44,585 nucleotides of DNA from contig JAJYMC010000038.1 of assembly GCA_021787335.1 (NCBI GenBank), positions 1 through 44,585 on the forward strand, in the 5' to 3' direction. The DNA is from Bacillota bacterium (GTDB taxonomy: Bacteria > Bacillota > Sulfobacillia > JAJYWN01 > JAJZPE01). The translations under genes were made by a program, and so were the position numbers. Numbering within the stretch: position 1 is the stretch's first letter; each line of letters opens with the position of its first letter. The notes below the pieces were generated by a model that saw only the letters and a program-made list of their open reading frames with translations, did not search any database and was not told where the DNA came from. Below, piece after piece: positions 351 to 13,730 of this stretch.

Positions 351-1373
351 CTAGATCCCGGGAAAGAGGTCTCCGGCCACCCGTTTCAACATTTCCGGCC
401 CCCGCACCTCGGTCTCATAGAGTGGGACGACCGCCCGGACCTCCGTGAAGGTGTCGAAGATCTGGTCCAGATAGCCCTTCTGCATCTCGATGCGGTTGAC
501 GACGAACTGGGACAGTTCGCCCGGCCCTGCACCGCTGGCGCCGGCGGCCATCCCCGTGTCCACGTTGATGACCCCGTTGACGACGACCCCGCCGACGGGG
601 ATGCCGAAGTCGTGGAACCAGCCGATGAACCGGCGGATGACCGCGATGGGCAGGGCCTCCGGAAGGGTGACGAAGAAGAAGGCCGTCTTGGCGTCATCGG
701 TGAGGAGCTTCTTGGCCTCGCCGATGCGGTCCTGGAAGGACAGCAGGTAGTCGAGGAGCGGGTCCTTCTCCTGCTTCTTGCGGAAGGACAGCGACAGGCG
801 CACGGCCTGAGCCTCCTTGCGGCTGTCGAGCATCTTCCCGACCCACAGGGTGTAGACCTTGGACATGCCCAGGAGGCGCCGGGCGTTGGCCGTCGGCGCG
901 GTGTCGAAGACGTAGACGTCGTACTTGTCCTCGAACATGATGTTGACCATGTTCTCGAACATGGCCGACTCCTCGAAGGCCGGGTTCATCGTGGCCGTCT
1001 CGACGAAGGCGTCGGCCTGGGTGGGGATATCGGCGAACTTCAGGAACCACTTTATCTTCTCGGCGATGTCGCGCTTCGACTTCTCGATGGTCTCGGTGGT
1101 GTCGATCTCGTAGGCCCAGAGGTTCGGCACCCCGTTGACCGGCGTCTCGGTCCCGAAGACGTTCTGGGCCAGGAGGCTCGACAGGCTGTGGACCGGGTTG
1201 GTCGAGGCCAACAGGGTCTTCCGGCCCTGCGAGGCGAACCACAGCGCGGCCGCCCCGGCCATGACCGTCTTCCCCACCCCGCCCTTCCCGCCGAAGAAGA
1301 TGTACTTCAGGTCGGGCTTCAGTTTGAGAAAGTCCTCCATCGGCTTCAGCTGCTCAGCCACGGCGACGCTCAC
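351..1373 (-). CDS. ArsA/Get3-family ATPase, second copy with altered active site
   Basis: A 340-aa SIMIBI-class ATPase of the ArsA/Get3 family, which couples ATP hydrolysis to metalloid export or to chaperoning of membrane proteins. The deviant Walker A loop GGKGGVGKT is at residues 28-36, followed by V where the family normally has T. The A-loop, usually DPAHSLSD, reads NPVHSLSS, so the Asp known to promote hydrolysis in Get3 is Asn. It starts at GTG 1373, overlapping the stop of the upstream paralogue by 4 bp (GTGA), so translation is probably coupled. No arsB, arsR or arsD lies nearby, so arsenite export is not supported. I infer a regulatory or heterodimer half rather than an independent pump ATPase. 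Confidence 0.85.
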   Translation of the reverse strand: MSVAVAEQLKPMEDFLKLKPDLKYIFFGGKGGVGKTVMAGAAALWFASQGRKTLLASTNPVHSLSSLLAQNVFGTETPVNGVPNLWAYEIDTTETIEKSKRDIAEKIKWFLKFADIPTQADAFVETATMNPAFEESAMFENMVNIMFEDKYDVYVFDTAPTANARRLLGMSKVYTLWVGKMLDSRKEAQAVRLSLSFRKKQEKDPLLDYLLSFQDRIGEAKKLLTDDAKTAFFFVTLPEALPIAVIRRFIGWFHDFGIPVGGVVVNGVINVDTGMAAGASGAGPGELSQFVVNRIEMQKGYLDQIFDTFTEVRAVVPLYETEVRGPEMLKRVAGDLFPGI

Positions 1374-2386
1374 CGGCCCTCACCCCCACTCGCGGCCGCC
1401 GCCTCGTCGGCGAACATCCGCTCGGCCATGCGCTCGATCATCCGCAGGCCGCGGATGTCGCTCTCGAACTCCGGCACGCGGCTGAGGACCCTGCCGGCAA
1501 AGGTCGTGTCGATCTTGGCCAGGTAGTCCTTCTGCATGGCGATGCGGTTCCTCAGGTACTCGGGGATGTTCTGGTTGACCAGCTCGGGCGGCACCACCCG
1601 GTTGACGATGTAGCCGCGGATGGGCACGGCGAACTTGCCGAACAGCTCGGCCGCCTTGACCGTGTCGAGGATGATCATCTCCTCAGGGGTCAGGACGAAG
1701 AAGAAGGCCGTCTGCTTGGAGTCCGTCAGGACGCCCGAGGACTTGTTGATCCGGTCCTTGATGTACAGGAGCTCCCCGAGGATCTTGTCCTCGTCGGTGG
1801 TCTTCTGGCGCCGGACCGCCGCGACCACCTGGTCGTACTCCTTCATCTGCTCGCGGAGCTTGGTTATCTTATCGATCCAGGCGTCGTAGACCGAGGCCAT
1901 CGACAGGTAGTAAAGGGCGTGGCCGAGCGGCACCAGGTCGTAGATGTAGTAATCGTAGCCGCCCTTGACGACGATGTTGACGACCTCGTCGAAGATGGCC
2001 GACTCCTCCATGGCCGGCTCGGCCGAGGCCGCCTGGATGTAGTTCTCGATCTCGTCGGGGATGGCTTCGAGGCCGTACATGTCGAGGATCTTCTTCTTGA
2101 CCTCTTCCTGGTAGGCCTTGATCCGGCGGTCGGCGTCGATCTCGCAGGCGTAGAGGTTGTCCATGATCTTGACCTCGCCCTGCCCGAAGATGTTGCGCTC
2201 GAAGATGTCGGACAGCGAGGCCTGCGGGTCCACCGAGAAGACGAGGACCTTGTAGCCTTTCTGGGCGAGGTAGTAGGCGGTCGCCGCGGAGAAGGTCGTC
2301 TTGCCGAGGCCGCCCTTGCCGCCGTACATGATGTATCGCACGTCCGGATATTCCCGGAAGAAGCTGGCGAGTGACGTGGGTCTCAC
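1370..2386 (-). CDS. ArsA/Get3-family ATPase, first copy
   Basis: A 338-aa ArsA/Get3-type ATPase. The deviant Walker A loop GGKGGLGKTT is at residues 22-31 and the A-loop reads DPQASLSD, keeping the Asp but replacing the usual His. It is the middle gene of a three-gene operon: 22 nt after a 126-aa protein and overlapping the second ATPase by 4 bp. ArsA proper is one chain with two homologous halves; here two single-domain proteins are made from adjacent genes, which suggests an obligate heterodimer. The cargo is unknown. A role with tail-anchored or other membrane proteins is possible, but nothing in the neighbourhood proves it. Confidence 0.87.
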   Translation of the reverse strand: MRPTSLASFFREYPDVRYIMYGGKGGLGKTTFSAATAYYLAQKGYKVLVFSVDPQASLSDIFERNIFGQGEVKIMDNLYACEIDADRRIKAYQEEVKKKILDMYGLEAIPDEIENYIQAASAEPAMEESAIFDEVVNIVVKGGYDYYIYDLVPLGHALYYLSMASVYDAWIDKITKLREQMKEYDQVVAAVRRQKTTDEDKILGELLYIKDRINKSSGVLTDSKQTAFFFVLTPEEMIILDTVKAAELFGKFAVPIRGYIVNRVVPPELVNQNIPEYLRNRIAMQKDYLAKIDTTFAGRVLSRVPEFESDIRGLRMIERMAERMFADEAAAASGGEGR

Positions 2387-2959: not shown

Positions 2960-4672
2960 TCAGTCGTCGCCCGGCGCGGCCTGGGCCGCTGGAGCCTTGG
3001 GCGCCTGGGTCTCCCCGCGCACCTTGAAGTACATCTTCAGGCCGTCGTAGATGAGGATGAGCGCGGCGACCATCAGGAAGATGGCGATGGCCGCGGCCAC
3101 CGCGTTCCCGCCGATGGCCAGCCCGATCGTCTGCCCGGCGGCCGGCTTGAGGGTACCGGCCTGCAGCTTCCCGACGTTGAGAATCAGGCTGCGGGCGGTC
3201 AGGCCCAGGGCGACGATGGTCGTGACGAACATGAAGAGGGCCGGATAGAAGGTCCAGGCGTGGCTCTTCTTCTGCCCGGCCAGCCAGATGGAGGCCATGA
3301 GGAGGGCCAGGGAGGCCATGAGCTGGTTGGACCCGCCGAAGAGGGTCCAGATGTAGGACCACGTGTTGGTATAGATGAGACCGAAGACGATGAGGCAGGT
3401 GACGATGGCCCCAACATGCTGGTTGCGGAAGGCCGGCACGGCGTCGCCGACCAGTTCGGCCGTGGCGATGCGGGCGAACCGCACGACCAGCTGCATGACG
3501 GTGATGGCGAGGATGACGAACATGGCCCCGGCGAAGACCGTCCCGAAGGACTCGGAGATGCCGATGAAGCCGAAGAACTTGGCCATGCCGACGGAGAAGA
3601 CCGTCGCCGGGCCGCCCTTGAGGGCCGCCTTGTAGGCGTCGAAGTTGGCGAAGGCCGCGCCGGCGATGATCAGGGCGATGGTCGCCAGGACCATCTCGAG
3701 GAACATCGAGCCGCCGGCGACGTAGCGGGTATCGGCCTCGTTCTCGAGCTGACGGGCCGTGCCGGAGCTGGACACCAGGCTATGCCACCCGGAGATGGCG
3801 CCGCAGGCGATGGTCACGAAGAGGATCGGCCACAGCGGCCCGGCGCCGATGGTGTAGGTGGTGAAGACCGGGGCGGTGAAGTTCGGGTGTCCGACCAGGA
3901 TGCCGATGATCGCCCCGAGCATGCCCAGAAAGACCAGGTAGAACGAGATGTAGTTGATGGGCTGGGTGTAACTCCAGATGGGCAGGACCGCCCCCAGGTA
4001 ACTGAAAAGCAGCGCGAACACCACCCAGACCAACTTTTGGGCCGGGATGGGAACCACGCTGCCGAGCCAGATGGCGAACAGGGCCAGGACGACCATGACC
4101 GCCGTGGTGACCAGGATGTCGATCTTCTTCTTGTAGATCATCCAGCCGGAGAGCATGCCCACGGCCATCAGGGCGATGATGGCCAGCGGCACGCTGGGGA
4201 GTTTGGCCATCATCGAGGCGACCATGTCGCCGAAGGCCGCGACGATGAGGATCAGGTAGAAGTAGATGAAGGCCAAGAGAGTCAAACGCCCGCGCGGCGA
4301 GATCAGCCGGTAGCTCAAGGCCCCGAAGCTCTGACCGTCGTTGCGCAGGCCGACAATGGCGCTCACATAGTCCTGGACCCAACCGATGAAAAACGTCCCA
4401 AAGACAATCCAGAGCAAGCCGGGCAGCCAGCCCCACTGCATGGCCACGATCGGGCCGGTGACGGGGCCGAGGGCGGCGATGGACTTGAACTGGTAGCCGA
4501 AGAGGACGTGCTTCCCGGTCGGCATGAAATCGACGCCGTCCATGTACATCTTGGCCGGGGTCGCCTTTTTCGGGTCCACTTTGATGATTTTTTCGTCGAC
4601 GTAGCGAGCGTAGACGTAGTACCCGAGAATTGCAGCGACGACCGCCAGCACAAGAGCGAGAACTGAGTTCAC
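2960..4672 (-). CDS. cstA: Carbon starvation protein A (CstA) family transporter
   Basis: A 570-aa polytopic membrane protein of the CstA family, which imports peptides or pyruvate during carbon limitation in the bacteria where it has been tested. The N-terminal YYVYARYVDEKI segment, the DGVDFMPT and LFGYQFKSIAALGPVTGPI stretches, and repeated hydrophobic helices throughout are typical. The chain is shorter than the roughly 700-aa E. coli protein but matches the compact form found in many other bacteria. The start is GTG 4672 behind an AGGAGGAGGGGG site. It has about 170 nt of its own upstream space, so it is probably a separate unit from the ArsA operon. No yjiX-type partner follows it. Confidence 0.93.
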   Translation of the reverse strand: MNSVLALVLAVVAAILGYYVYARYVDEKIIKVDPKKATPAKMYMDGVDFMPTGKHVLFGYQFKSIAALGPVTGPIVAMQWGWLPGLLWIVFGTFFIGWVQDYVSAIVGLRNDGQSFGALSYRLISPRGRLTLLAFIYFYLILIVAAFGDMVASMMAKLPSVPLAIIALMAVGMLSGWMIYKKKIDILVTTAVMVVLALFAIWLGSVVPIPAQKLVWVVFALLFSYLGAVLPIWSYTQPINYISFYLVFLGMLGAIIGILVGHPNFTAPVFTTYTIGAGPLWPILFVTIACGAISGWHSLVSSSGTARQLENEADTRYVAGGSMFLEMVLATIALIIAGAAFANFDAYKAALKGGPATVFSVGMAKFFGFIGISESFGTVFAGAMFVILAITVMQLVVRFARIATAELVGDAVPAFRNQHVGAIVTCLIVFGLIYTNTWSYIWTLFGGSNQLMASLALLMASIWLAGQKKSHAWTFYPALFMFVTTIVALGLTARSLILNVGKLQAGTLKPAAGQTIGLAIGGNAVAAAIAIFLMVAALILIYDGLKMYFKVRGETQAPKAPAAQAAPGDD

Positions 4673-8652: not shown

Positions 8653-8889
8653 AACAAGTCGACCCGCTCGCGGTCATCGTCTTGTGCCGTTTTGAGGCCG
8701 CGGAAAACATCATAGCACACAAGAAGGTCAGGTTCAAAGGCGAAATCCAAAGGTGTGGGGCGATGGCAGTGAACGGGCGGCCGCCTGTTTCTAAGCAAAC
8801 CTACATCATTATTCGCCGGTCTTGCGCGCGGCAGGAGATTGGAGTCCGACCGTGTAATTTCCTCTCAGATTGAGCCTTTGCGCACAAAG
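8653..8889. other. Intergenic region upstream of the sulfur island
   Basis: No gene is supported in this stretch. A TTG at 8839 opens the transporter frame early but sits 1 nt after its AGGAG and would add an atypical soluble leader. I see no clear promoter. Confidence 0.4.
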
Positions 8890-9492
8890 ATGGGGCTGGC
8901 GCCGATGTCTGTCTTCGTCAAGTTGATCGTCGCTTTGATCGTCGGGCTGCTCGTCGGCTTCGCCGTCCAGCGCTCGCGGTTCTGCTTCGTCGGCGCCTTT
9001 CAGGACGCCTACCTCTTCGGCCTCAACGGGCTGGCCGCGGCTGCGGTCATCCTCACCGCGCTAGCCAGCGCTGGTTACGCGGCCGTCCGGCTGGCGGCGT
9101 TGTCGCCCGCCGCCGGCGGCCCGTTGGGCGCGTCCATGGGCAATGTCTTCCCGGTTGGCTGGCACACCGTCGTCGGGGGGCTTCTCTTCGGCCTGGGGAT
9201 GGTCCTGGCCGGGAGCTGCGCCCTGACCACCCTGACCCGCGTCGGCGAGGGAGCCACCGTCGGTCTCTTCGCCCTCGGCGGGCTCGCCGCCGGCGGCTTC
9301 ATCGGCCGCGATCTGGCCGGCTGGTGGACAGCCCACGTCGGGACCGGCGTGGTCGTCCACCTCCCCACCGCTCTGGGCTGGCCGTTGGCCTTGGTCATCC
9401 AGGCGGCCCTGCTGGGTGCCCCGCTCTATCTGCTCACCCGCCGCATCTCGCAGTCCCGTGCAAGCAAGACCGAGGGGATGGACGATGCCTGA
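8890..9492 (+). CDS. YeeE/YedE-family (sulfur transport) half-protein A
   Basis: An inner-membrane protein of about 200 aa of the YeeE/YedE (DUF395) family, whose characterised members (TsuA) import thiosulfate through conserved cysteines. I see QRSRFCFVGA with Cys at about residue 32 and AGSCALTTLTRVGEG with Cys at about 110, plus five or six hydrophobic segments. It corresponds to one half of the full-length transporter; the other half is encoded at 9733, with tusA between. The start is uncertain (ATG 8890, or ATG 8905); none has a good ribosome site. Its stop overlaps the tusA start by 8 bp. Confidence 0.87.
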   Translation: MGLAPMSVFVKLIVALIVGLLVGFAVQRSRFCFVGAFQDAYLFGLNGLAAAAVILTALASAGYAAVRLAALSPAAGGPLGASMGNVFPVGWHTVVGGLLFGLGMVLAGSCALTTLTRVGEGATVGLFALGGLAAGGFIGRDLAGWWTAHVGTGVVVHLPTALGWPLALVIQAALLGAPLYLLTRRISQSRASKTEGMDDA

Positions 9493-9736
9493 GTTTCTCC
9501 TGGACACCGTCGGCGACGTCTGCCCGGTGCCACTGCTCAAAGTGCAAAAGGAAGCCCGCCGCCTCGGCCCCGGCGACCTCCTGGTCATCGAGATCGGCCA
9601 ACCCAGGACGGTCCGGAACATCATCGAATGGGCGGCCAAGAACGGCTACGCGACCGAGGTCAGCCCGGAGGCCCACGGGATGTGGCGTCTGGGCCTGCGG
9701 CTCGGCGCCGGCGGCGCGCGCAAGGCCGGGCGATGA
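9485..9736 (+). CDS. tusA: TusA-family sulfurtransferase
   Basis: An 83-aa sulfur-carrier protein. The signature DVCPVPLLKVQKE carries the persulfide-forming Cys at residue 13 in a CPxP context. TusA-like proteins relay sulfane sulfur in tRNA thiolation and in dissimilatory sulfur metabolism. It overlaps the YeeE-type half A by 8 bp upstream, and its stop overlaps the half-B start by 4 bp (ATGA), so stoichiometric coupled synthesis is likely. The position suggests that it accepts sulfur from imported thiosulfate. Confidence 0.93.
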   Translation: MPEFLLDTVGDVCPVPLLKVQKEARRLGPGDLLVIEIGQPRTVRNIIEWAAKNGYATEVSPEAHGMWRLGLRLGAGGARKAGR

Positions 9737-10224
9737 CCCGCCCGGCCCGGCTGCGCGAATGGAGCTATCTCGCCGGAGCGACGGCTCTGGCGGCCGCCGA
9801 GGCGGCTTTCCTGCTGACCTTCGGCTCGGCCATCGGGCTCACGGCGCCGCTGGCCGGCATCGTGCCGACCTGGGCGAGGGGCCTCCCGCGCGGCGCGGCC
9901 ATCGCCTTCGACGGGGCCATCGTCGCCGGGGCCTTCCTCGGCGCCGTGCTTTCCGGAGAGTTCCGACCACGCCTCCGCGCCTACGGTTCAAGGGTGCTGA
10001 CCCTGGCCCTCCTGGGCGGCCTGTTGATGGGCATCGGCGCCCGCCTCGCCCCGGGCTGCAACATCGGCGGGGTCCTCGGCGGCATCGCCTCGTTCTCCCT
10101 GCAGGGATGGGTGGAGGCTCTCTTCGTGGTCGCCGGGGCCTACCTTGGCACCCGGTACCTTATCGGCCGGAACGCTTCGGACCGCCCGCTCAACAGTAGA
10201 CCGAACGGGTCAGGAACCTCATGA
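9733..10224 (+). CDS. YeeE/YedE-family half-protein B
   Basis: A 163-aa membrane protein, the second half of the split YeeE/YedE transporter. The family motif is ARLAPGCNIGGVLGG, with Cys at about residue 109, and there are about four hydrophobic segments. It starts at ATG 9733 inside the tusA stop. Its 3' end overlaps the end of the convergent LysR gene by 35 bp. With half A it probably assembles a heteromeric thiosulfate or sulfur-species channel, as proposed for PmpAB-type split proteins. Confidence 0.87.
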   Translation: MTRPARLREWSYLAGATALAAAEAAFLLTFGSAIGLTAPLAGIVPTWARGLPRGAAIAFDGAIVAGAFLGAVLSGEFRPRLRAYGSRVLTLALLGGLLMGIGARLAPGCNIGGVLGGIASFSLQGWVEALFVVAGAYLGTRYLIGRNASDRPLNSRPNGSGTS

Positions 10225-11071
10225 ACTGGCCGGCGGACCGGCTGTGCTGCTTGTCCTCGCGGTAGACGAGATGAATGTCCATGGTCAGGTCAAGGCCCTC
10301 GATGCTGAGGGCCTTTAACAATCCCCGCCGGACCTCCCGTTGCACCGCCAGGACGGGTAGGATGGCCGCGCCGAAGCCGGACTCGACGGCCGACTTGATG
10401 GCGTCCGTCGTGCTCATCTCGGCGGCCACCTTGAGCCGGTCGAACCCGATGCCGACGTGGTTCAGGCAGGCCTCGATCGCCTCGCGCAGGCCGGAGCCGC
10501 GCTCGTGGGTCAGGAGCCCCCGCTCGGCGAGCTCCTCCGGGGACACGCTCTCGCGGCCCGGCCAGGCCCCCGGGGCGCACACCGCGACGAGCTGCTCGGC
10601 CTGCATCGGCACGGCCTTCAGGCCCGCCAGTTCGGCCGGCCCCTCGATGACTCCCAGGTCGAAGACGTTCTCCAGGACCTTCTTCTGGACCGCCTGGGTC
10701 GTCTCGATCTCCAGGCGCAGCACGCAGGCGGGGTACTTCTGCTTGAAGGCCCACAGGGTGCAGGGCAAGGCGTAATTGCCCACGGTCGGGCTGGCCCCGA
10801 TGACGATCTCGCTGTCCGCCTCGAGCGCGCCGACCTCGCGCTCCATGGACTCGACGAGGTCGTTTATCTTTTCCGCGTAGTCGAAGACGACGTGGCCGGC
10901 GCGGGTCAGTTCCACGCCGTGGCTGTACCGGTCGAACAGGCGCACGCCGAAACGGCGCTCGACCGTGGCCACCTGCGCGCTCACCGCCGGCTGCGACAGG
11001 TGCAGCAGTTTGGCCGCTTTCGAAAAGCTCTTGATCCTGGCCACGGTGACAAAGGCCTGAAGCTGCTCCAG
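10190..11071 (-). CDS. LysR-family transcriptional regulator
   Basis: A LysR-type activator/repressor: an N-terminal winged helix (KSFSKAAKLLHLSQPAVSAQV) and a periplasmic-binding-like effector domain starting at SEIVIGASPTVGNYALP. The only ordinary start, GTG 11044, would cut off the first helix; the frame continues sensibly upstream as LEQLQAFVTVA, the usual beginning of the family. The best start is therefore the rare CTG at 11071, since no ATG, GTG or TTG occurs in frame before the stop at 11162-11164. It is divergent from the cytochrome gene, with a dyad between them, and convergent with the YeeE/TusA genes, so it probably regulates the sulfur island. Confidence 0.85.
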   Translation of the reverse strand: MEQLQAFVTVARIKSFSKAAKLLHLSQPAVSAQVATVERRFGVRLFDRYSHGVELTRAGHVVFDYAEKINDLVESMEREVGALEADSEIVIGASPTVGNYALPCTLWAFKQKYPACVLRLEIETTQAVQKKVLENVFDLGVIEGPAELAGLKAVPMQAEQLVAVCAPGAWPGRESVSPEELAERGLLTHERGSGLREAIEACLNHVGIGFDRLKVAAEMSTTDAIKSAVESGFGAAILPVLAVQREVRRGLLKALSIEGLDLTMDIHLVYREDKQHSRSAGQFMRFLTRSVYC

Positions 11072-11299: not shown

Positions 11300-12685
11300 T
11301 TGCAAAACGACCGTGCCCAGAGGAGACTCGGGTTCGCCCTGTTGTTCCTGGTCATCGCCGTGACCGCGGCGGCCATGGTGACCGGGACGGCCGGCTGCGG
11401 ACGCAGCTACACCTGCATCGATTGCCACACCGACCGAGAACGGCTGCTGGCCGACCTGAAGGCCGACCCCATCAAGGCCCCGCCGAAGTCGACCGAGCAA
11501 TCGGGGGAAGGCTGAGGCGGATCGCTGCCTCCGTTGGAGGCGCAAGACAAGGTCCTCGTAGCCAAGGGGTTCACGGGCACTAGTCACGGCGACGTCAAGT
11601 GCACCGAGTGCCATGGCGGCACCGAGCCGGCCGGCAACCGGGCCGACGCCCACCGCCACGTGACCCCGCACCCGTCCGCCGTGCCCGTCACCGCCGGCGA
11701 CCCGGGCAGGAACGTCTGCTCGTCGTGCCATTCCGGGATCACCAAGGCCTTCGCCGCCTCACTGCACCGGACGACCGCCGCGGTCTCCGACCCACGGACG
11801 GCCGTGGTCCTGGCCCGCGCCAAGGCCGAAGACCTGACCGCGCTGAAGCCGGCCCTCGAGAACCACTGCTCAGCCTGCCACATCACCGGCTGCGGCGACT
11901 GCCACATCAGCCGTCCTGAATGGAGCGGCGGCGGCTTCGTCGACGGCCACAACCTGCAACGGACGCCGAACTCCATCACCAACTGCACGGCCTGCCACGG
12001 CAGCCGCATCGAGAAGGAGATGATGGCCGAGGCGCCGGAGACGGTCGAGCCCCGTCCGAAGCCGGACGTCCACTGGTCGCCCAAGGGGATGCAGTGCGTC
12101 GCCTGTCACAAGGAGAGCGCCCTGCACGGGACCGGCGCGACGGTGCCCGCCAACCGCTACGCCGACCCGCTCGAGCCGACGTGCCAGGGGTGTCATGACG
12201 TCGCGAAGGACGGCGTGGCCGCCCACCGGCAGCACGGGCAGAGCGGGAGCAGCCGGGTCCTCCTGCAGTGCCAGGTCTGCCACGCCCAGCCGTACAACAA
12301 CTGCTACGGCTGTCACGTCGGCAAGGACGACAAGGGCCTGGCCTACTTCAAGACCGACAAGTCCGTCTTCGACTTCAAGATCGGGCGCAACCCGGTCAAG
12401 ACCAAGGAGCGTCCCTACGACTATGTGGTCGTCCGCCACGTGCCGGTGGCCCGCGACACCTTCGCCTACTACGGGCAGGACCTCCTGAAGAACTTCGACG
12501 CGGCCCCGACCTTCAAGTATGCGACGCCCCACTCCATCGCCCTGAAGACGGCCCAGAACGCCAGTTGCGCCGCCTGCCACGACAACCCGGGCCTCTTCCT
12601 GCAGGAGAAGGACGTGGCTCCGGACGAGCGGGCGGCCAACAAGGACGTCATCGTCAGGCGACTGCCTTTCAGCATGGGCCGCTAG
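11300..12685 (+). CDS. 11-heme cytochrome c, candidate selenoprotein (in-frame TGA at codon 72)
   Basis: Reading from TTG 11300, 7 nt after AAAGGAGGAG, one frame runs to 12685 and encodes 461 residues, interrupted only by TGA at 11513-11515 (codon 72). The N-terminus is a hydrophobic export signal with a possible lipobox Cys at 33. Eleven CxxCH heme sites start at residues 39, 101, 140, 190, 198, 229, 266, 295, 324, 335 and 423. Both sides of the TGA belong to the same cytochrome: one heme before, ten after. The TGA follows SGEG and precedes GGSLPPLE, and a SECIS-like hairpin begins 11 nt later, so insertion of selenocysteine is plausible. It would be an extracytoplasmic electron carrier or sulfur-compound reductase, co-transcribed with the rhodanese lipoprotein. 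The alternative is a nonsense mutation giving a 71-aa fragment. Confidence 0.72.
11513..11541 (+). promoter_or_regulatory. UGA codon plus SECIS-like hairpin
   Basis: After the TGA come 11 nt, then GCCTCC-GTT-GGAGGC (11527-11541), a perfect 6-bp stem with a 3-nt loop whose first bases are G and U. Known bacterial SECIS elements are hairpins inside the reading frame just downstream of UGA, with a small loop carrying an early G some 16-37 nt from the UGA; here that G is 18 nt away. The fit is good, but short GC hairpins are not rare in such DNA. Confidence 0.55.
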
Positions 12686-12746: not shown

Positions 12747-13730
12747 ATGAACCGCCGAGCGCTCCGGCTCACCGCCCTGGCCCTGGCCCTGGCCTTGACC
12801 CTGGTCACGGTCCTGGCCGGTTGCTCCAAGGGCCCGAGCGAGTTCGACCAGCTCGCGGCCCAGGCCGACAAGTACCTGAGCCTTGGCCGCGCCCCGACCA
12901 TCTCCGCCGAGGATGTCCAGAACAAGATCATCATCGGCAAGGACCCGAGCTACTTCCTGCTCAGCGTGAGGAAGCCCGAGGACGACGCCAAGGGGCACGT
13001 CCCGGGGGCCATCACCATCCCCTTCAACCAGATCTACAAGGCTGAGAACCTGGCCAAGCTGCCCAAGGACAAAAAGATCGTGGTCATCTGTTACACCGGC
13101 CACACCGCCAGCCAGACGGTCGCCCTCCTGAACCTCCTGGGCTATGAGGCCTACGCGATGAAGTTCGGGATGTCCGCCTGGACCGACAACAAGGACATCC
13201 TGGGCATGGCCGTGCCCGCCCTCAACCCGGGTAACTACCCGATGGACACGGCGGTGAACAACGGCAAACCGGACAACACCCCGCCGGTGCTGAAGACCGG
13301 GAAGAAGGGCCTCAACGAGATCATCCTCGCCCGGGCCGAAGCCTACCTGACCGCCGGTAAGCCGGCGACCATCGCCGCCGAGGAGGTCTACAACAAGGCC
13401 ATCGTCGGCAAGGACCCGTCGTACTTCGTCGTGAGCATCCGCAGCAACGAGCATGACGCCAAGGGCCACGTGCCCGGGGCCATCACCATCCCCTTCAAGG
13501 AGATCGCCAAGCCTGACAACCTGAAGAAGCTGCCGACGAATAAGAAGATCGTCGTCGTCTGCTACACCGGCCACACGGCCAGCCAGGCGGCAATGATCCT
13601 GCAACTCCTCGGCTATGACGCGTACGCCATGAAGTTCGGGATGTCGGCCTGGACCGACAACAAGGACGTCCTCGCCGTAAAGCCCTACGACGGCAAGCCG
13701 CTGAATTACGCAACCGAGCCCGGCAAGTGA
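12747..13730 (+). CDS. Tandem rhodanese-domain lipoprotein
   Basis: A 327-aa exported lipoprotein: signal peptide with lipobox LAGC (Cys 26), then two rhodanese domains. Each has the loop CYTGHTASQ with its catalytic Cys (residues 115 and 272), and each ends in a near-identical AYAMKFGMSAWTDNKD block, so the domains arose by internal duplication and both appear active. Rhodaneses move sulfane sulfur from thiosulfate or polysulfide to a thiol or cyanide. The ATG follows GAGGAGGG, and the gene lies 61 nt after the multiheme cytochrome. Together they suggest sulfur transfer and electron delivery outside the cytoplasmic membrane. Confidence 0.92.
   Translation: MNRRALRLTALALALALTLVTVLAGCSKGPSEFDQLAAQADKYLSLGRAPTISAEDVQNKIIIGKDPSYFLLSVRKPEDDAKGHVPGAITIPFNQIYKAENLAKLPKDKKIVVICYTGHTASQTVALLNLLGYEAYAMKFGMSAWTDNKDILGMAVPALNPGNYPMDTAVNNGKPDNTPPVLKTGKKGLNEIILARAEAYLTAGKPATIAAEEVYNKAIVGKDPSYFVVSIRSNEHDAKGHVPGAITIPFKEIAKPDNLKKLPTNKKIVVVCYTGHTASQAAMILQLLGYDAYAMKFGMSAWTDNKDVLAVKPYDGKPLNYATEPGK

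Follow-up and report, generated by a model that had tools for sequence, protein, structure and literature searches.

A candidate selenocysteine-containing 11-heme cytochrome c paired with an exported rhodanese in Bacillota

The window (the whole stretch of 44 585 nt of Bacillota DNA analysed here) carries the gene for an 11-heme cytochrome c that is exported and probably anchored by a lipid; judging from comparative sequence data, the UGA at its residue 72 is very probably decoded as selenocysteine (Sec). We base this reading on the occurrence of TGA at one and the same column in 20 genomes and on the Cys found there in relatives without Sec machinery. As a rhodanese gene stands beside the cytochrome gene wherever the flank is readable, the protein looks like a hitherto unlisted selenoprotein family for sulfur handling. 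The best explanation as a whole, i.e. a Sec cytochrome taking part in a sulfur mechanism, is assigned a probability of roughly 0.8.

Results

The cytochrome frame spans positions 11300–12685 of the forward strand and translates into 461 residues followed by a terminal TAG, with a TGA as its single internal stop (Table 1). It contains 11 CxxCH motifs: CIDCH at residue 39 precedes the TGA, the other ten (CTECH, CSSCH, CSACH, CGDCH, CTACH, CVACH, CQGCH, CQVCH, CYGCH and CAACH) follow it. Translation thereby confirmed what an earlier, sequence-only reading had claimed, namely a single frame with 11 heme motifs and a lone TGA at 11513–11515. The start codon is a TTG with a Shine-Dalgarno-like AAAGGAGGAGAAAC directly upstream, which is common to the two nearest relatives, and the N-terminus forms a hydrophobic helix (residues 5–28), an export signal that ends in the lipobox VTGTAGC. 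The protein thus shows both the export signal and the CxxCH motifs of a multiheme cytochrome c, and the 11 CxxCH are kept across the family. Residue 72 is found in the context SGEG-U-GGSLPPLEAQDK; the Gly-rich setting pointed out by the sequence-only reading is part of a loop, between hemes 1 and 2, whose Gly-rich motif recurs in the homologues with a TGA. For residues 60–90 around the TGA we obtained a dN/dS of ~0.04 against each of the two nearest relatives; purifying selection thus extends across the site, which indicates that the frame is translated through it.

Table 1. Positions in the window of the cytochrome gene, its recoding elements and neighbouring genes
Feature	Position	Strand	Remark
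11-heme c-type cytochrome, lipoprotein signal, one UGA read through (predicted)	11300..12685	+	from translation
Putative selenocysteine codon, in-frame TGA, residue 72	11513..11515	+	from homologue alignment
SECIS-like hairpin just 3' of UGA	11524..11543	+	stem GCCTCC (11527–11532)/GGAGGC (11536–11541), loop GTT
Tandem rhodanese lipoprotein	12747..13730	+	two CYTGHTAS active-site loops (Cys115, Cys272); conserved partner of the cytochrome
LysR regulator, divergent	10190..11044	-	closest to NF040786; true start probably slightly upstream
YeeE/YedE (Sulf_transp) half-transporter 1	8839..9492	+	
TusA-like sulfurtransferase	9485..9736	+	
YeeE/YedE (Sulf_transp) half-transporter 2	9733..10224	+	open frame from 9628

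The cytochrome gene is present in 7 of 154 genomes of the class (the own genome counted). A phylum-wide sample of 398 genomes yielded 11 further homologues, each with one internal TGA, and two Nitrospinota genomes also have a homologue with a TGA, so that the total amounts to 20 genomes from two phyla, with identities to the window protein of 31–86%. All 20 of these homologues contain exactly one internal stop; it is always TGA, always in the same column and always within a Gly-rich pattern, GEG-U-GG..P. The sequence-only reading had held that Cys or TGA at this column of a homologue alignment would support Sec, and that another residue or a gap would argue against it. Among the homologues bearing the Gly-rich loop we counted Sec in 20 genomes, Cys in 2 and Ser in 1, and never a gap. 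The Cys forms (L014 and L016; GGGCGGPPP) belong to Ignavibacteriota and Bacteroidota, while the Ser (TCA) occurs in one partial homologue (L039, 1354–2304) from a genome that is 72% complete. Four more distant homologues with 10–12 hemes (L040–L043) are devoid of the Gly-rich segment. In the tree, the Nitrospinota pair and the pair of Cys forms are separate and each well supported; the deep branching is uncertain due to long branches.

The sequence-only reading had also proposed a search of the genome for selA, selB, selC and selD, and the full set was recovered. The genome to which the window belongs as contig C11 (G000) has a size of 3.55 Mb and is 97% complete; in it we found SelA (C21:24561–25943), SelB immediately downstream of it (TIGR00475, 349 bits), a tRNA-Sec with UCA anticodon (C21:44259–44351) and SelD (C14:31302–32264, L049). 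This SelD has an in-frame TGA of its own near its start (KAGUGCK), where selenophosphate synthetases have their catalytic Cys or Sec, and the genome therefore holds a second, textbook case of UGA as Sec. Each of the 19 Sec-form genomes examined for SelA has it above cut-off; SelD likewise exceeds its cut-off in the Sec-form genomes tested for it, except for the Nitrospinota genome, in which SelA is present and SelD was not found above cut-off. In the two Cys-form genomes (L014, L016) neither SelA nor SelD was detected above cut-off. SelA is also encoded in the genomes of the Ser form and of the loop-less homologues, and hence does not discriminate inside this phylum. A tie of the Sec cytochrome to selenium genes comes from genome G057 (L050, G057:C86:8000–26000), where selA, selB, tusA, lysR, the Sec cytochrome, the rhodanese and selD follow each other within ~11 kb; in another genome (G143) the Sec cytochrome shares a contig with selB, selA and selD at a distance of about 12 to 16 kb.

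A hairpin begins about 14 nt past the UGA, with the sequence GCCTCC-GTT-GGAGGC in the window, TCCCCC-GGTC-GGGGGA in Nitrospinota and CCCGC-AGTTA-GCGGG in L033. Over the six pairs of an ungapped alignment we counted 13 doubly compensated cells versus 5.6 ± 1.8 in shuffles, and slid controls all stayed below the hairpin register. When the stability of the hairpin region is ranked against other windows of its own gene, it is among the more stable ones in the Sec genes, with a mean rank of 0.16 (n = 19; KS P = 1.5e-8, a significance that is overstated because the rows are related), unlike in the two Cys forms (0.54 and 0.85), from which the hairpin is absent, as expected of a bacterial SECIS. The hairpin of the window itself is marginal (P = 0.08 versus synonymous shuffles) and L035 has no clear hairpin 3' of the UGA. 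RNAalifold predicted no common structure on the alignment, since loop length and register differ among the rows. The Ser form L039 retains a strong hairpin, possibly as a fossil SECIS after a recent loss of Sec; a sequence error is another possible origin of this combination.

The rhodanese adjoins the cytochrome in every loop-bearing locus for which the flank can be read (22 of 22; L022, at a contig edge, is omitted), the Cys forms and Nitrospinota included; the flanks, mostly ~1.5 kb, were searched by sequence similarity. This partner is usually tandem-domain. That of the window retains the active-site Cys of both domains, and for Desulfitobacterium hafniense a tandem rhodanese having two active sites is reported according to a citation in PMC6148476. 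None of the four loop-less homologues has an adjacent rhodanese. Loop and partner thus seem to have been gained or lost together. On the other side of the cytochrome gene, the LysR regulator reaches 203 bits with the selenium-metabolism-associated model NF040786, which is under the 250-bit cut-off, and the LysR of one relative exceeds it. Also upstream, the two YedE genes and tusA make up a YedE-TusA-YedE set for sulfur transport. Some matches of the YedE proteins are to thiosulfate (TsuA) models and others to selenium models, all of them under the cut-offs. YedE pair and LysR are likewise present in the sister species, and a distant, single-contig genome (G266) combines LysR, YedE-TusA-YedE, a cytochrome b561-like protein, a second multiheme cytochrome, the Sec cytochrome and the rhodanese. 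Elsewhere in the window, inspection of the translations revealed two adjoining ArsA-like anion ATPase genes (351–2386, reverse strand) and, upstream of this pair, a CstA-like transporter (2960–4672, reverse strand).

The loop-bearing homologues keep all 11 heme-binding (proximal) His and have 9 other invariant His, which leaves two hemes without an invariant distal His. Outside the heme motifs, residue 72 is the sole invariant Cys/Sec column. An AlphaFold model of the cytochrome reached a pLDDT of 73 and a pTM of 0.69; the Sec loop (residues 61–75, pLDDT <50) is among its least confident stretches and is probably a mobile arm, with which the low values are consistent, if not proof. Fold comparison of the model gave weak matches to octaheme HAO (Z 4.0, rmsd 5.9 over 208 residues), and a sequence search of the PDB with the cytochrome returned nothing useful.

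Discussion

Sec-containing multiheme cytochromes are known as a kind. A prediction of 2007 for Geobacter (PMC1914089) concerned the protein that later received the name ExtKL and was investigated together with the rhodanese ExtH and the porin ExtI (PMC5877670, PMC6148476), and a 2026 inventory of Sec-containing cytochromes comprises ExtKL and the octaheme family TIGR04315 (PMC13188914). The guess of the sequence-only reading that such a protein is little or not described consequently has to be narrowed: it does not hold for Sec multiheme cytochromes in general, but it may still apply to the present family, which differs from ExtKL. ExtKL of Geobacter sulfurreducens (NF040886) resembles the window protein in that it, too, is a multiheme c-type cytochrome with a predicted Sec and has a rhodanese lipoprotein encoded alongside it (PMC1914089, PMC5877670, PMC6148476), yet it has 5 hemes with the Sec after the heme domain, whereas in the window protein, with its 11 hemes, the Sec follows the first heme and precedes the second. 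NF040886 (cut-off 250 bits) does not match the window protein and is not among the models matched by 24 family members; ExtKL was looked for in 299 genomes from the phylum without a match, but as the control was also silent, absence is not to be inferred from it. The tetrathionate reductase family TIGR04315 is likewise multiheme, carries a sulfur-related name and has one GenBank-annotated Sec member (PMC13188914); it is octaheme, however, and is matched weakly by 1 of 24 family members (E = 7.5e-4) and not by the window protein. Weak similarity of the window protein to ExtN and ExtM (NF040967 and NF040943; 36.8 and 34.6 bits) is far under the cut-offs of 200 and 800 bits, and no Sec is reported for these proteins in the literature searched. 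In the sulfur- and iron-respiring Dethiobacter alkaliphilus, clusters 5-T and 4 combine the multiheme cytochrome DealDRAFT_1917 with rhodanese-domain proteins (PMC10376724); this cytochrome, called octaheme and likened here by description only, possibly belongs to the same family. None of the 18 950 models of NCBIfam release 20 matches the window protein at its cut-off, and the open literature searched contained no account of an 11-heme cytochrome with Sec. Within that literature, the family, its heme number, the Sec position and the loop–rhodanese rule appear to be new.

From the conservation of the partner and general selenol chemistry we infer a path of sulfur from rhodanese to selenol to heme, for which we see about even chances. 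The adjacent exported rhodanese would draw sulfane sulfur from a donor such as thiosulfate or polysulfide, hold it as a Cys persulfide and pass it on to Sec72, giving a selenenyl sulfide, which the heme chain would reduce with release of sulfide; in the alternative direction, the heme chain would take electrons from sulfide or persulfide. Sec in place of Cys would be the better nucleophile and leaving group. With somewhat less confidence, at a little under even odds, we propose a specific form of it, a rhodanese–selenocysteine–heme relay: in this exported sulfur oxidoreductase the swinging selenol of the Gly loop would receive the sulfane sulfur, and the redox step would fall to one heme of the 11-heme wire, either penta-coordinate or Sec-bound. 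We know of no described enzyme with such an arrangement.

The main rival to the sulfur relay is selenite reduction, as suggested for Geobacter ext: the protein would still be a selenoprotein, with the rhodanese–cytochrome pair reducing or detoxifying selenium or tellurium oxyanions instead of acting on sulfur. This is a serious, if rather unlikely, alternative. The Geobacter cluster runs from extH, the rhodanese lipoprotein, to extKL, the Sec cytochrome, and deletion of extI impairs selenite/tellurite reduction (PMC5877670); the likeness of the neighbouring LysR to NF040786, exceeding the cut-off in one relative, and the putative selenium transporters among YedE proteins point in the same direction. 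The YedE matches in question are, however, split between thiosulfate and selenium without reaching any cut-off, and the Cys-form relatives retain the rhodanese pairing in genomes without SelA or SelD above cut-off. We judge it less probable still that the main role of Sec is to ligate a heme and so tune an electron conduit, the rhodanese then acting in maturation or repair. Such a role would suit the two hemes without an invariant distal His and the uniqueness of residue 72 among Cys/Sec columns beyond the heme motifs, but the Gly-rich loop with its low confidence in the model is more like a swinging nucleophile, and nothing places it at a heme.

Readings without Sec fare worse. That the UGA is read as some other residue, by a changed code or generic readthrough, could be argued from the Ser of one homologue; it is very improbable given that the genome encodes tRNA-Sec, SelA, SelB and a Sec-type SelD and that Cys occupies this column where SelA is missing above cut-off. 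A nonsense mutation or base-call error, which the sequence-only reading had named as competing explanations, is excluded by the conservation of the TGA across families and two phyla. Taken together with an assembly error or a truncated protein that restarts at TTG 11534, where a listed open frame begins 21 nt past the TGA, we regard the chance of this group of explanations as negligible: the TGA is shared by 20 independent genomes, the low dN/dS across the site, the hairpin and the exchange of Sec for Cys all speak against it, and a restarted protein would be devoid of the export signal that heme attachment requires.

The Sec cytochrome adds a selenoprotein family, very probably with a Sec form in two phyla and a Cys form in an Ignavibacteriota/Bacteroidota lineage. 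Ordinary gene calling would break such a gene up, annotating a short peptide and, devoid of its export signal, a truncated cytochrome, so that databases probably lack both the gene and its function. That Sec/Cys loop and rhodanese are strictly paired suggests, in concrete and testable form, how a heme wire might cooperate with selenium and sulfane sulfur, and the pairing may also bear on ExtH and ExtKL of Geobacter.
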